The translations under genes were made by a program, and so were the position numbers. 45,453 bases of DNA, taken from Chthonomonadaceae bacterium. Its GTDB lineage: Bacteria > Armatimonadota > Chthonomonadetes > Chthonomonadales > Chthonomonadaceae. The stretch's first letter is position 1. Every line of letters starts with the position of its first letter. Below the pieces are notes generated by a model. It saw only the letters and a list, made by a program, of their open reading frames with translations, did not search any database and had not been told where the DNA came from. The stretch lies in the NCBI GenBank assembly GCA_027450145.1, contig DAIDKH010000034.1:1-45453 (forward strand), given 5' to 3'. Positions 25,280 to 43,557 of the stretch are shown here, piece by piece.

Positions 25280-26770
25280 CTACTCGCTGGACGACCGAAT
25301 AAGGTATTCACCTTCGGTATTTGGTCCTTTAGGTGAGGGGCGCAAAAGGTCGTTGGGGCCACCGGTTTCGGGTTGAGACATTCTCAGCAGAGTACTGCTG
25401 GCCGTATTCGCGGCCGCAACCTGTGGCAAAAACAACAAGCAGTGTTTGGCTGCATCACTAACGCGCCGTTGTACTACGCTGCTGGGGTTAAGGGCTGCAA
25501 GCTGCTCTACCGGTAGCAGCGCGCTTTCATCACCCACCTGCTCCAGGCACTTCAAGATAGCTATTATCAGTTCATGGTAGTTCGGAACCAACTGCGGCTT
25601 AAGGAATCCCAATAACTCTGCCTGCTGCTCGGCACTCAAAAATCGCCTGTCTCGTGTTTTCAATTTGGGCAACAGGGTAATTAGGCCCTCAATTGCAACG
25701 TTACGACAATGAATATCTGGCCAACTGAGGGCGTCCACCAGGTGCCCAACGTTCTCGGGTTTTCCCTGTGACGAAAGTTCCTGAATTCGGCCAACATCAT
25801 CTGGCCGCATCGTCACACGGAAAATTACAGCAGGAATAACTGCCACAACAAGGGAAAGTCCAGCGGCGATCCAATTTGCCGTGGCCCCATACTTTACTGC
25901 GCTATAAAGACCAAAAGGAACAAACGTAACAATCGAGGCACACAAAAAACCGGATCGCACGTTCCTAACCGTTGAAGCTGCTTCAGACACAGAGTTATCC
26001 CGCTGCTCGTCGATTGGGGCAGGGTCGGGAGCGAATACTTCAGATGCAGACTCGTCTGCTGGTACGGCGTTCCTCGGGCGTATATACGCAGGTGCCGAGA
26101 GCTGATCATAGCATTGTCTAGCGGCATTGAATACCGATGGTCTAAGGTTTAAGCGTAATAGTTTCGGCAGGTATGGCAGTGCCTCCACATCACCCATTCG
26201 CGTGTACATCTGCAATAGAGCGATTACGAGAGTAGGAAATTGAAGTGCGTTGAGTGGGGTTAGTAGGCCTGCCAGCATCGCACTATGGCGCTGATCGATG
26301 AATGTATCGTGCTGTCCTGGTCCGATGTCTCGCACTAGCCGTAAAAGGTGGTATCTTGCCAACAGTCGAAGGTTAGGCTCTGGCCAAAAAGCTAGTTCGA
26401 TCATCGGGTTCAGCCGATCAAATCCCACGTAAGAACTCATAAACGCATGCTCCGCGACACGGGTGCGGCGTAGAGTCCTCGCCCATCCGTACTCCAATAA
26501 CAACAACACTAATGCGAGTGGAGTTAATTGTGTCATATTGAACGGCTGATAAATCAATTTGACCAGGAGTACCGTCACTGCGGATAGTTGAAACAGCAGA
26601 TGGGCAGTATGGCCGCCGGTGAGCGGACGCTCGGCTTGCAGATCTGATACTAGTGCTAATACGGATGACCGCGTAACAGCAGATTGGCCGGATTGGGGCT
26701 CGACATCCGCCTCCGATTGATGCGCTTCAGGATACTGCGACTGCGAAAGAATCGCGTTGTTATCATTCAT
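25280..26770 (-). CDS. four-TM HEAT-like membrane protein with C-terminal (T/D)LLRP repeats
   Basis: 496 residues, unknown function, paralogous to the protein encoded at 29429-30910. Layout: hydrophilic N-terminus, two TM helices (about 55-73 and 80-97), an alpha-helical HEAT-like stretch (110-230), two more TM helices (about 275-295 and 302-322), then a second helical stretch. There 'VGHLVDALSWPDIHCRNVAIEGLITLLPKL' aligns with 'VGELIDVLQWPDEHILRMVTSSLCRLLPSC' of the paralog. The tail carries three copies of a short motif: TLLRMS, DLLRPS and YLIRSS at about 460, 474 and 489. It is the third gene of the ECF-sigma operon, starting in an ATGA overlap. Confidence 0.75.
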   Translation of the reverse strand: MNDNNAILSQSQYPEAHQSEADVEPQSGQSAVTRSSVLALVSDLQAERPLTGGHTAHLLFQLSAVTVLLVKLIYQPFNMTQLTPLALVLLLLEYGWARTLRRTRVAEHAFMSSYVGFDRLNPMIELAFWPEPNLRLLARYHLLRLVRDIGPGQHDTFIDQRHSAMLAGLLTPLNALQFPTLVIALLQMYTRMGDVEALPYLPKLLRLNLRPSVFNAARQCYDQLSAPAYIRPRNAVPADESASEVFAPDPAPIDEQRDNSVSEAASTVRNVRSGFLCASIVTFVPFGLYSAVKYGATANWIAAGLSLVVAVIPAVIFRVTMRPDDVGRIQELSSQGKPENVGHLVDALSWPDIHCRNVAIEGLITLLPKLKTRDRRFLSAEQQAELLGFLKPQLVPNYHELIIAILKCLEQVGDESALLPVEQLAALNPSSVVQRRVSDAAKHCLLFLPQVAAANTASSTLLRMSQPETGGPNDLLRPSPKGPNTEGEYLIRSSSE

Positions 26771-28452
26771 CGCGAACCTCCTTTTGAACTGCTCGGCGCA
26801 GGGCTCGGCCTTAACGCTTCACTCCTTACTGCCCTAGAGCCGCGCCTTCGAATTGTAAGGTGGTGCTCTCCCAAAGACCGGTTGTAACGACCAGGCAACG
26901 GACTCTCCACATGCATAAAACGCTGCGATGAAAAACGTGGAATGCCTCCAAAAAACGGTATTAACCTGGCATTAAATGTGGCCGGTGAGGCCTGAGGATA
27001 CATAGATTTGAGCCACGACGGAACTTTACCGGTTTTCGTTATATACGCCGAAGCCTTTAGCGACAGTACAGCACTACGTATCCAGTGATGCATACCGTCG
27101 ATATCATTTTGCAGCAGTGCCCCACAGTTAGGATCATAAGCCTCAATCGCAATTGGGTCCGACCGCCGGAATTTCAAATTTGTACTCTGCCCGCCTATTG
27201 TCCTGGGGAACAGCGGTATATCGGCGGGGCCTTCGCTACGGGCAAGAACGGACATGTTGTAATCGTAATCAGCTAGTATTCGGTTCTTACTTAACACCAG
27301 TGATTGAAGTATCCGCTGAGGCAGACTGATTTTCTCAACCGCTCCGGACAATGACTCGCTGTACGAGTTACGGCTATTTGAGCGCCAGATCATCATTGGC
27401 GTAAGAACGTTTTGCGACAGATAACGTTGCAGCCTATAGCGATTGTTAGCCATATCCGCCATCATAAGCACTTTGAGGGCGGGTATGGAATTATCGATCC
27501 GTGTCAAACCATTTATTAATTTATAAAAATCGCGACTACTCACCTTGGGCGCCAGTGCGACTAAATCTCTCAAGGCACGTACTACCGTAATTACACCGTA
27601 ATTTCCGATCCCGTTTCGCGGCGCGTTCAAACTGTAAACGATGAGCCGAACCCGCTGTAGCGCATCCGCGGCAGCGACGTCATACTTTCCATTTTTAGCG
27701 GCGACATAAGTACGCGCCCAAAGTGCACGATTAAGGAAGGGTTCTACTTGCTCAATTTCAGTTTGAGGATCTAGTTTAGAACCACCTTTCAGGGCATGGC
27801 CAAAAGTTGGGTTGGGCATCATTAACCCCTCGCCGGTAGAAACAACAAGCTCACCACGGTAGGGTCTTCCAAGGTTGTTAGAGACAATCCAGAACGGCTG
27901 ACCTTGGGGTTCCACTTCTACACTTCCAGGGACCGGCGGACGCCACGGCTGCTGAAGGCTATTATCAACTAGCTGATAGAACTGCCGGTTATCTGCGACA
28001 AATCTGGAAATGCTGTTAGATGTTCTAAGGAGCTGTGCTGGCATCGGCCGCCCATCAGCAGCGTCCTTTATAGATAACCCATTCTTGCCATGCACTAACA
28101 ACCACCAGGGTGTACTTGAGCGGGGAACCATTAATTTGGTGTCCGCATTAAGCCATTGCGCAAGCGTCGAAGAAGAATTATCGGCGGTGACTGGCGGAAC
28201 GGAGGGCAATGGCGAGTTCGCCCACAACGTGTGCCCCGCTGCGAGTACCACGACAGAACAAATCGTCATCAATTTTGCTCGATTGCCCAGCCGCACCCGT
28301 CGTTGATAATCTGCCGCAGGATAAATAGACCAGCATTCCTGCACGGCGTTCATTACGGCGGAACGGTTAGGTAGATCTGCCTGCATGCTGGCAATACCAC
28401 GTTGGAGTTTGTTGGCATTGACCAAATCCTGATTATCGATAGAAACGTTCAT
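26767..28452 (-). CDS. single-pass membrane protein cotranscribed with an ECF sigma factor
   Basis: 561 residues, no family recognised. About 60 cytoplasmic residues are followed by one TM helix (about 62-80, KLMTICSVVVLAAGHTLW) and a ~480-residue extracytoplasmic part. That part has beta-rich segments first (GRPYRGELVVSTGEG) and helical ones later (TYVAAKNGKYDVAAADALQRVRL). Its position directly after the sigma gene (ATGA overlap) and its topology are those of anti-sigma factors, but the zinc-binding HxxxCxxC anti-sigma motif is absent. Alternatives are a sensor partner or a target of the sigma factor. The C-terminal tail is Ser/Pro/Arg-rich (RPSPAPSSSKGGSR). Confidence 0.7.
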   Translation of the reverse strand: MNVSIDNQDLVNANKLQRGIASMQADLPNRSAVMNAVQECWSIYPAADYQRRVRLGNRAKLMTICSVVVLAAGHTLWANSPLPSVPPVTADNSSSTLAQWLNADTKLMVPRSSTPWWLLVHGKNGLSIKDAADGRPMPAQLLRTSNSISRFVADNRQFYQLVDNSLQQPWRPPVPGSVEVEPQGQPFWIVSNNLGRPYRGELVVSTGEGLMMPNPTFGHALKGGSKLDPQTEIEQVEPFLNRALWARTYVAAKNGKYDVAAADALQRVRLIVYSLNAPRNGIGNYGVITVVRALRDLVALAPKVSSRDFYKLINGLTRIDNSIPALKVLMMADMANNRYRLQRYLSQNVLTPMMIWRSNSRNSYSESLSGAVEKISLPQRILQSLVLSKNRILADYDYNMSVLARSEGPADIPLFPRTIGGQSTNLKFRRSDPIAIEAYDPNCGALLQNDIDGMHHWIRSAVLSLKASAYITKTGKVPSWLKSMYPQASPATFNARLIPFFGGIPRFSSQRFMHVESPLPGRYNRSLGEHHLTIRRRGSRAVRSEALRPSPAPSSSKGGSR

Positions 28453-29021
28453 TGCTGTATCTCTTTCGCCAGCCGTGTCTTAACCTGATCATCGTTCGCG
28501 GCTTCTGCGGAATCAAAATGGAGTCGCAGCTTGGTACGCGCGCTAAACAGCCGCGATTTTACCGTGCCCTCGGGAATCTCCAGCGCACCGGCAGCCTCTT
28601 TAACCGAAAATTCCTCAACTGCTACCAGGAGAAAAGTAACTCGAAGGTCCTCCGGAAGCATGCTAATTGCAGCTTCCAGGGCAACACGATCGGTTGAATC
28701 GTTCAATTCCACCGGTTCATGAACACCATCGCCGATGGGCATATCGTTTGGAAGCTCTCTCCGCCAATGGAGATATTCACGATAAGCGATACGGCGCACC
28801 CAGGTGGTAAACGAACACTCGCCCCGAAATAGAGGAAGCGACTGCCATGCACGACTAAATGACTGCTGGGTAATATCCTCCGCAGCTTCCCGCCTGCAAG
28901 TAAGGTGCAGTGTCATGCGATAAACAGCAGGATAGGTTTCTTCTATGAGCGCCTGTGCAGCACGATGGTCACCTGCTAACACTCGCCTAATAAGTGCCCT
29001 GTTCTTCATTATAGTGCTCAA
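28449..29021 (-). CDS. ECF-family RNA polymerase sigma factor
   Basis: 190 residues. Region 2 shows 'LIEETYPAVYRMTLHLTCRREAAEDITQQSFSRAW' with the usual D-I-T-Q-x-x-F core, then 'FTTWVRRIAYREYLHWRR'. Region 4 shows 'LPEDLRVTFLLVAVEEFSVKEAAGALEIPEGTVKSRLFSARTKLR' with its helix-turn-helix. The start is TTG at 29021: AAGGAG lies 7 nt before it, while the ATG four codons on is too far. A membrane protein gene overlaps its stop by four bases, the usual arrangement of a sigma factor with its regulator. Possible own promoters lie at 29040-29115. Its targets are unknown. Confidence 0.93.
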   Translation of the reverse strand: MSTIMKNRALIRRVLAGDHRAAQALIEETYPAVYRMTLHLTCRREAAEDITQQSFSRAWQSLPLFRGECSFTTWVRRIAYREYLHWRRELPNDMPIGDGVHEPVELNDSTDRVALEAAISMLPEDLRVTFLLVAVEEFSVKEAAGALEIPEGTVKSRLFSARTKLRLHFDSAEAANDDQVKTRLAKEIQQ

Positions 29022-29428
29022 GCTGTGGCTCCTTATTAATCTAGAGCAGGAATCAACTTGGTCGGTTCAACCCTCAACGAACAATTTATAAAATGAGGTA
29101 ACCATTAAGTTTCAAAGAAGGAACGTGACTCATCCCCGCCAAAGGAGCGAGGAAATTGCGTTACGACTGACATGGAGCCTTGCAGGTGACATTGACGTGA
29201 TCAATTTAGCGGCGAAATTAGACTGATGATCTGAACGAGACCGCGCAAATTCTTCTTTTTCGTTCGGGTAATCTAGAACGTCGATTGTTTGCCAAATCTA
29301 TCCATGCGTATTTCACGATCTCGACCCACAACTTGGTTAACGGAGTGAGGCCCGGAGACCAGCGATACAATTTTAACGAGTGGGCACCATCACACTTCGC
29401 CAATTCGTAAGGCAAATTCCCTCGCATT
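29022..29428 (-). promoter_or_regulatory. ECF operon promoter region, no gene
   Basis: A 407-nt gap. On the minus strand TTGAAA (29110-29115) and TTATAA/TATAAA (29085-29091) lie 18-19 nt apart and could be a housekeeping promoter. Nearer the gene, TGAACC (29064-29069) and TCTAGA (29040-29045), 18 nt apart, resemble an ECF-type promoter (GGAAC..TCTNA) and could be autoregulatory, though the spacing is slightly long. A 123-codon frame here is a shadow. Confidence 0.4.
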
Positions 29429-30910
29429 CTAGCGCAACGGCCGAAGTAGGTCATCCTCCACGTGCAATCCATGACCGGTAGGCCGCAACAGTGTGCCCTC
29501 GGCGTCCGCCGCGCTTCGTAAGCCATATAGCTGCTCCAGGCAGTGCTCAGCGGCTGCCTGTAAGTATAACTGGTCGTTGCAGGCTGCATTCAAATTCGCA
29601 ATATCTTCCAGCAGTGGAATTGCTGCCAGGTCCGGAGATCGCTCGAGGCACTGTATGACCGTCAATATAAAGCGAGTGGCATCAGAAGCGATCAATGTTT
29701 CATCCACGGCGAAAGGGTTGAGGTCATAGTTTAGCGGTACCTTGTTCCGCGTTGAAGGCAGGAGTCGACGCACTCGGTTATAGATTAGCCAGCGCTGGTT
29801 GCTCGTTAATAATGCTAATTGGCTCGCTTCACAGCTTGGTAGCAAGCGACATAACGAGCTCGTGACCATTCTCAATATGTGCTCGTCCGGCCACTGCAGT
29901 ACATCAATCAATTCCCCGACTCGACCGCAATCGCGCATTCTGCATAACTGTAACACTTGGGAGGAGCGGTTGGACCATAATGTGTACCGTGCCAGCACAA
30001 GCGGAGCTGCCGCCACAAGCATGTAGAATGGTATCTCCGCAGGCGACGAAGACCGGGCCAGCAGTGCACCTACCACACCATAAGGTACGAAAACGATTGA
30101 TGCTGCAATGAAATAATGCCTCCTTACAGTAGGACTTGTGGCTCGACTATGTGATTCTGGTAAGGCCCTGCTTTCAACTTCGGGCGCAAGTGATACTGCG
30201 GCAACTGGCCCAGCATCCACAGTGCGCAAATATGCCGCTCGTGCACGATTGCGCTGCTCCTCTCTAAGCGCAGCAGCTTTTTCGCGTTCACTCGGCAGTA
30301 TCCGCGATACCACAGACTGCAGAAGGTTAGGAACGCAATCCAACTTACGATGCGCCCGTACTTTGCGCATGAACCCTGTCAATTCGCGTTCGAACCTGGT
30401 TATGACCCAAAATCGCTTAGACTGGCAAGTTTCAAGTATCGCTAATTGAGAATAGGATAGCTGCGAGATTAGTGGGTCGTCTACTGCCACAAGAGGAAAT
30501 AGACGTGCAAGACGTAGCCGGGCCACTGCCTGTACCTGACGATCAGCACTATCCAACAACATAATGAGAATGGGAATATCGGCAGTGCACAAATCCGAGG
30601 TCGCTTGATACCCTTTCAAAACATCGGCGCGAGGGAAGAAAACCGAATTTGAATAGTAAACGACCATCAGTATCACTACCAGCTTCCACGAGATAAATTC
30701 AAACACCAAAGTGAAACCCACAATCGACAACAGCGCGCGGGAAATCGTAAATTTTGCAGACGCCTTCTGCACCTGCAATATGCGCTCATACAAGTCCAGT
30801 TCACGCTCCTGAGGGGACAAACCAGGTTCACGGGGCGGGTCTTTGACCACATTATAGTTAGTAGCAATTTCGGCAGGATCGTGATTAATTCCAGTATCTG
30901 CATGTTTCAT
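29429..30910 (-). CDS. four-TM HEAT-like membrane protein, paralog of 25280-26770, with (T/D)LLRP tail
   Basis: 493 residues from the ATG at 30910 (AGGGGAC 5-11 nt upstream; the frame extends 20 residues further without a better start). Same plan as its paralog: N-terminal soluble part, TM pair at about 58-78 and 82-98, helical stretch rich in Leu/Arg, TM pair at about 265-285 and 292-310, and a second helical stretch (ELIDVLQWPDEHILRMV). The last 21 residues contain TLLRP and DLLRP exactly 14 residues apart, matching the spacing in the paralog. It is separated by 407 nt from the sigma gene, so it may be transcribed apart from it but belong to the same system. Confidence 0.72.
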   Translation of the reverse strand: MKHADTGINHDPAEIATNYNVVKDPPREPGLSPQERELDLYERILQVQKASAKFTISRALLSIVGFTLVFEFISWKLVVILMVVYYSNSVFFPRADVLKGYQATSDLCTADIPILIMLLDSADRQVQAVARLRLARLFPLVAVDDPLISQLSYSQLAILETCQSKRFWVITRFERELTGFMRKVRAHRKLDCVPNLLQSVVSRILPSEREKAAALREEQRNRARAAYLRTVDAGPVAAVSLAPEVESRALPESHSRATSPTVRRHYFIAASIVFVPYGVVGALLARSSSPAEIPFYMLVAAAPLVLARYTLWSNRSSQVLQLCRMRDCGRVGELIDVLQWPDEHILRMVTSSLCRLLPSCEASQLALLTSNQRWLIYNRVRRLLPSTRNKVPLNYDLNPFAVDETLIASDATRFILTVIQCLERSPDLAAIPLLEDIANLNAACNDQLYLQAAAEHCLEQLYGLRSAADAEGTLLRPTGHGLHVEDDLLRPLR

Positions 30911-31232
30911 AATATGTCCCCTACTAACGAGGTCCAACTTACAGGTCGCACGCAGCCTACTACCTGGCATGTAGAAATACTGCGAAGCGGCACGCGGCTG
31001 TCGTTACCCATTGTGCAACCCGCGCCATAAGTAACCATCCTAAAAATATCAAATAGGCGGTATTTTGAAGCGTGCTACACCTAGAGCCAGAAAACCATGG
31101 GAGTCGCTCCGTTTTGCATCAGCCTAACTTGTATAACGTTTTTTCATTGCCTGCATATCGGGATACAGCCGGGAATCACTGCGCAGCAAAGGCTCCTCGT
31201 TTCGGCTAAACTAAATCAGGTTAAATATTAAT
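30911..31232. other. divergent intergenic region
   Basis: 322 nt between the HEAT-like gene (minus) and tilS (plus). It must hold promoters for both, but I see no clean -35/-10 pair or strong repeat. The tilS side is AT-rich (AAATCAGGTTAAATATTAAT) and lacks a good Shine-Dalgarno. Confidence 0.4.
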
Positions 31233-43311: not shown

Positions 43312-43557
43312 ATGAAATGGGAATTTCTGGGTGTGCAGCACCTTACCGAAATTAAAGGGGAACACCGCGGTTACACCTACAACATTAACGTTTGGCGCTC
43401 GAAGGTGCCCGGTGGGTGGCTCCTCATGAGTATGAATGAACGCAGCCAGGACCCTCAAGGAATGATGGCGTTCTACCCTGACCCAGACCATGTTTGGAAT
43501 GGCCACGACGAACCGCAGTACGACGATTTGCTGAGACCCTTGGGGACAACGGTTTAG
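43312..43557 (+). CDS. small orphan protein with C-terminal DLLRP motif
   Basis: 81 residues, no family recognised. GAGGTGA lies 5-11 nt before the ATG, a good ribosome-binding site. The protein is rich in aromatic residues (MKWEFLGVQHLTEIKGEHRGYTYNINVWRSKVPGGWLLMSMNE) and looks beta-rich, with no signal peptide. Its last 11 residues are DDLLRPLGTTV, matching the DDLLRPLR tail of the membrane protein encoded at 29429-30910. It is a single-gene unit convergent with the beta-helix gene. Confidence 0.6.
   Translation: MKWEFLGVQHLTEIKGEHRGYTYNINVWRSKVPGGWLLMSMNERSQDPQGMMAFYPDPDHVWNGHDEPQYDDLLRPLGTTV

Follow-up and report, generated by a model that had tools for sequence, protein, structure and literature searches.

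Why should two membrane proteins and a small soluble protein encoded elsewhere on the same contig end in the same short motif? The window analysed here, meaning the whole 45,453-nt stretch of DNA, makes up contig C34 of a genome of 4.14 Mb assigned to a Chthonomonadaceae bacterium, and that genome was covered by profile searches and sampled stretches. The first-pass annotation had described spaced xLLR motifs at the C-termini of the two membrane proteins and one such motif in the small protein, and translation bears this out. Protein A (25280..26770, minus strand, 496 aa) consists of two units, each a transmembrane (TM) hairpin plus a HEAT domain, and a predicted disordered tail that ends in ...STLLRMSQPETGGPNDLLRPSPKGPNTEGEYLIRSSSE and holds TLLRMS (residues 460-465; 25376..25393), DLLRPS (residues 474-479; 25334..25351) and YLIRSS (residues 489-494; 25289..25306), all on the minus strand and spaced 14 and then 15 residues apart. 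Its paralog protein B (29429..30970, minus strand, 513 aa), with TM segments, a HEAT domain and a two-copy tail, ends in ...GTLLRPTGHGLHVEDDLLRPLR and holds TLLRP (residues 493-497; 29480..29494, minus strand) and DLLRP (residues 507-511; 29438..29452, minus strand), so the 14-residue spacing of the first two copies is indeed the same in both. The 81-aa soluble protein (43312..43557, plus strand) belongs to a small family with the signature VPGGWL...FYPDPDHxW that is unrelated to A and B, and ends in ...YDDLLRPLGTTV with a single DLLRP (residues 72-76; 43525..43539, plus strand).

The C-terminal ~270 residues of A and B are homologous (28% identity, E 4e-21), so the tail common to both reflects in part their common descent. 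The earlier description of the carriers as having different cores therefore fails for A and B, and holds instead for the 81-aa family and for a 90-aa carrier with a single TM segment. Orthologs of A occur in genomes G001 (54% identity) and G002 (46%), and the B ortholog in G001 (49%) carries TLLRA as its first copy and NLLHP as its second. As context only, A closes a minus-strand gene run (26767-29021) that has 4-base overlaps at both joints: an ECF sigma factor at its head (28449..29021, minus strand; Pfam Sigma70_r2 and r4_2) is followed by a 561-aa protein that seems to have a single TM segment (26767..28452, minus strand), which overlaps the start of A and may be an anti-sigma factor. This gene order is kept in G001 (L109) and is absent around other carriers.

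Two copies are common to A and B, as had been noted, but the full form of the tail has three. Among 98 distinct carriers listed, one of them a chance match in a control genome, 87 had three copies, a statistic conditioned on the motif because the carriers were gathered with patterns and profiles that require it. In the listed carriers, copies 1 and 2 are mostly 14 or 13 residues apart and copies 2 and 3 mostly 15, 14 or 16. Each copy has its own signature: [QA]-T-L-L-R-[AP]-[SA] for the first, [ED]-x-L-L-R-P-A for the second, with E or D two residues ahead of the motif in 68/87, and P-x-E-[QE]-L-L-R-[PA] for the third; H may replace R, as in LLHP. Beyond the LLR-like core and the residue after it, the flanks were left free by the search pattern; the copy-specific signatures there thus count as independent evidence and suggest that all three copies share one origin as parts of a composite unit. 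Docking of phosphothreonine onto FHA domains through TLLR is unlikely, since threonine is found in 46/87 first copies and is not usual in the second and third.

The last copy lies within 30 residues of the C-terminus in 94/98 listed carriers, and a median of 7 residues follows the last motif. Exceptions occur in the window's own genome (L092 4047-5288, minus strand) and in L106 (3079-4281, minus strand) and L077 (1236-2492, minus strand), where the triple array is internal and is followed by a HEAT-like stretch of ~60-90 residues, so a free C-terminus is dispensable. On two contigs of G028 (L255 on C52 and L256 on C239), four to five HEAT carriers lie in head-to-tail clusters; their bodies have diverged and their tails are near-identical (ARLLRPAESPGAP...LLRPAGSATxVPEEQLLRPS), which suggests gene conversion or a tail under very strong constraint.

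Could such arrays arise by chance, or persist through inheritance alone? Single LLR[PA] motifs in the last 40 residues showed no general enrichment among 387 proteins of the window's own genome and 380 of Chthonomonas calidirosea, whereas shuffling 97 carrier tails left an in-register pair in only 0.02 tails on average against 95/97 observed, a contrast inflated by selection of that set for the motif. The proposed genome-wide enrichment over shuffled tails thus applies, in the window's genome and its relatives, to the spaced array and not to lone motifs, and a defined set of proteins bears this array. When A was aligned with 24 relatives (21-51% identical to it), L461, L462 and R463 of the first copy and L475 and R477 of the second were invariant, L490 and R492 of the third were kept in at least 90%, and the residues between copies varied freely.

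Further evidence comes from seven sets of same-genus orthologs, which, like the 81-aa family gathered through its core, are largely free of motif-selection bias. Their LLR residues were 92% identical, compared with 38% for the linkers and 71% for the adjacent upstream HEAT region, and 77% of the identical LLR residues were encoded by a changed codon. The LLR amino acids have stayed fixed despite codon change, which indicates selection on the motif residues and not recent copying. This bears on the idea that the tail has no function of its own and was simply kept by descent within an expanding HEAT paralog family. That most carriers are HEAT paralogs, some in tandem clusters with near-identical tails (L255, L256), fits such a history, yet it does not account for synonymous change at LLR codons beside linkers that have otherwise diverged, nor for unrelated cores that carry the tail and whose orthologs are conserved across genera. 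The codon-level test refutes inheritance alone, unless the ortholog sample is misleading, and we consider it scarcely credible. Taken together, these sequence comparisons provide strong evidence that the motif is conserved for a function, and the orthologs of A, B and the 81-aa protein do retain it, contrary to the refuting outcome named in the first-pass annotation.

The 81-aa family offers a separate line of evidence because its members were found without reference to the tail. Nine orthologs, drawn from the window's genus and from six further genera, were picked by their core alone; all nine end in [LM]LR[PA], compared with 0.04/9 when shuffled; each has one or two terminal copies, and 4/9 have two. 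Conversely, a tail profile containing no row from this family recovered the 81-aa ortholog from a different genus with E 6.8e-6. A same-genome paralog on contig C7 and relatives outside the order, in other Armatimonadota families, lack the tail (L056 1501-1707; L051, L052), so the tail was probably gained within the order. Neither the 81-aa protein nor its family matched Pfam or NCBIfam, and a PDB sequence search with the family gave no significant match. No signal peptide is apparent in the sequence, and a single-sequence AlphaFold2 model was of low confidence (mean pLDDT 56).

To map the tail across Armatimonadota we used profile A4, built from 33 tails, and a broader profile, A8; the two superseded a DNA pattern for the tandem motif whose counts lay near control level and were mostly noise. 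A4 reached E-values down to 1e-15 in carrier genomes, while its best match in six control genomes of other families had E 0.03. At E <= 1e-4 it matched 27/111 Armatimonadota genomes, most of them metagenome assemblies that include two same-genus relatives of the window's genome: 17/17 in the window's family, including that of C. calidirosea T49, 10/12 in a sister family, 0/2 in a third family of the order and 0/80 elsewhere in the phylum. The two tail-less genomes of the sister family, G020 and G025, belong to one genus; they have neither the TM-HEAT subfamily nor a tail match and represent a natural loss. Relatives of A are confined to the same two families of one order, and the TM-HEAT subfamily and the tail are jointly absent in G017, G019, G020 and G025. 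Carrier genomes had 2 to 39 A4 matches; in the 4.3-Mb genome G008, A8 gave 40 below 1e-3, of which a few are truncated where a contig stops. The window's own genome has about nine carriers, namely A, B, the 81-aa protein and proteins on contigs C2, C6, C16, C21, C28 and C55.

The majority of carriers are HEAT-repeat proteins, ranging from soluble solenoids of 630-690 aa to membrane proteins that have one, two or four TM segments. Pfam assigned HEAT_2 or HEAT_PBS to most of the divergent carriers tested; A itself had no Pfam match and is placed among them by its modelled solenoid and weak ARM/HEAT matches. Other carriers do not fit this pattern. L245 (90 aa) joins a single TM segment to the complete triple tail through a short linker, and L243 is similar; L286 (152 aa) has no Pfam match and no evident HEAT repeats; and the C. 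calidirosea membrane proteins L142 and L143 are unlike the others, the one tested having no Pfam match. None of ten HEAT proteins picked with a HEAT profile from the window's genome and C. calidirosea has the tail, so the tail labels a subset of HEAT proteins. With most carriers being HEAT paralogs, much of the sharing reflects descent, and independent acquisitions were few.

AlphaFold2 modelling of A with four relatives gave two units, each a TM hairpin and a helical solenoid, and left residues 461-496 disordered. Tail pLDDT was below 50 and most of the HEAT part scored 70-90, with a mean of 66.9 from only five aligned sequences; the best PDB fold matches were ARM/HEAT proteins, weak and poorly superposed. 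Basic residues flank both hairpins on the solenoid side (RTLRRTR behind the first hairpin and FRVTMRPDDVGR behind the second), which places the HEAT domains and the tail of A most likely in the cytosol. The tail follows likely cytosolic HEAT domains, occurs on a soluble protein too and is sometimes internal, all of which make a signal for export or membrane sorting unlikely. Of the docking or sorting role first proposed, the better supported part is a shared, spaced signal of the docking type.

The main rival to a separate receptor is self-assembly, in which the tail would bind HEAT grooves of the same protein class in trans, the carriers' own HEAT domains acting as receptors in a membrane-associated network and the small tail-only proteins joining as clients. 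HEAT domain and tail are paired in nearly all carriers, HEAT/ARM grooves are known to bind short motifs, as PP2A-B56 binds LxxIxE (PMC7108865), and genomes have either both the TM-HEAT subfamily and the tail or neither, although shared descent would give the same co-occurrence. The HEAT domains of carriers have diverged to an extreme degree, unlike the tail, and genomes without any tail are rich in ordinary HEAT proteins. In the monomer model of A the tail was not docked in cis on its own HEAT domain, which, as far as the shallow alignment allows, speaks against self-assembly. We regard it as unlikely, with perhaps a minor share of the probability.

Position and disorder also recall degradation tags, and the tail could mark proteins for regulated turnover, to be recognised by an AAA+ protease or by an adaptor of it; its three copies would then set the degradation rate or act as a tether. 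In G015, clpC lies 17 bases downstream of a gene for an A-like carrier (L221 1644-3111, plus strand), but this adjacency was found in that genome only and was not seen at the related loci searched. A degron needs no array of three distinct copies, the arrays of L092, L106 and L077 are internal with a further HEAT segment behind them, and proteases are universal while the tail is not, leaving turnover improbable. The co-occurring partner or protease that the first-pass annotation proposed to look for did not emerge from the gene neighbourhoods of carriers, which were diverse and without a common theme. An operon partner was likewise rejected, since the run of ECF sigma factor, 561-aa protein and A is kept within the genus and other carriers have unrelated neighbours.

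Multivalent short peptides would also fit a repetitive lattice, and the tail might then be a cargo or localisation tag for a known scaffold, whether through an encapsulin shell, a bactofilin filament or mimicry of the FtsZ C-terminal peptide. Encapsulin cargo in Myxococcus is loaded via targeting peptides. The encapsulin family PF04454 was found in 0/10 genomes of the order, with control genomes positive as expected, and a cargo peptide of this kind was rejected. Bactofilin (PF04519) was found in 1/10 genomes, which rejects recruitment to it as a general explanation. FtsZ proteins of the order end in the ordinary DIPxFLR peptide in a single copy (DIPTFLRKQ, DIPAFLRRR), unlike the xLLR[PA] arrays, and the non-carrier G017 has such an ending as well; mimicry was also rejected. 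A known scaffold of this sort is thus very improbable, and an unnamed lattice acting as the receptor is possible and compatible with a docking array.

A disordered segment with several copies, fixed core residues, freely varying linkers, differing host proteins and restriction to one clade points to a docking array of short linear motifs. We favour, with moderate confidence, a portable, disordered, cytosolic array that recruits its carriers to one putative shared receptor. Three short linear motifs, spaced ~14 and ~15 within ~40 residues, would each place an L-L-R in one of the receptor's repeated sites, and the three together would bind by avidity; carriers, mostly HEAT scaffolds anchored in or close to the membrane together with a few small proteins, would in this way be gathered onto the same receptor. 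Support for docking as the mode of action is good as far as comparative sequence analysis reaches, and from it we infer protein binding, in the cytosol, by a putative receptor common to all carriers. More tentatively, and somewhat short of an even chance, the three-site LLR tail on up to ~1% of proteins may constitute a lineage-specific intracellular tagging system in which HEAT scaffolds and small clients assemble on a dedicated, undescribed hub and so build a membrane-associated compartment or scaffold of a new kind.

A conserved tag on ~9 proteins here and ~40 in relatives suggests that this little-studied phylum has an organising system so far overlooked. Because the carriers include the cultured C. 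calidirosea T49, its receptor can be sought directly, and presence and absence across the order, with two natural losers in a carrier family, enable phylogenetic profiling for it. The form of the motif appears undescribed, as first supposed: no Pfam or NCBIfam entry covers the tail, its motif strings were not found in a relevant sense in a search of mainly open-access literature, and a defence-system library gave no relevant match.

Among known systems, the FtsZ C-terminal conserved peptide DIPxFLR has a hydrophobic-Leu-Arg core and binds several partners. It resembles the LLR tail in that core, and differs in being single copy with an acidic-Ile-Pro lead. HEAT_2 (PF13646) and HEAT_PBS describe the core of most carriers, whereas ordinary members of these families lack the tail. 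The eukaryotic motif LxxIxE, read by the HEAT-repeat PP2A-B56 subunit (PMC7108865), is likewise a short hydrophobic and charged motif in disordered segments with a HEAT solenoid as its reader; the motif itself is different, and a receptor role for bacterial HEAT domains would be an analogy. Encapsulin cargo-loading peptides such as those of EncB and EncC in Myxococcus (PMC8229669) are terminal peptides that bring different proteins to a repetitive receptor, although their motif differs and many LLR carriers are membrane proteins.

In its distribution the tail resembles the C-terminal sorting tags of the PEP-CTERM/exosortase (PMC1569441) and MYXO-CTERM/myxosortase (PMC11980579) systems. Those tags combine a C-terminal TM helix and a basic cluster with an invariant Cys or PEP and serve export, whereas the LLR tail is a disordered array of three copies, most likely cytosolic and borne by proteins that are already membrane-anchored or soluble. 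No hydrophobic stretch, and so no TM helix with a basic cluster, follows the motif in the tail ends of carriers, and without these defining features of PEP-CTERM the LLR tail is not a member. Carrier genomes nevertheless hold from a few to ~40 proteins, mostly HEAT but with unrelated cores among them, that have a common C-terminal region, and phylogenetic profiling is the approach described for PEP-CTERM and EpsH (PMC1569441). As in PEP-CTERM and MYXO-CTERM, a short C-terminal region is found on dozens of proteins per genome within a restricted clade, implying a dedicated partner.
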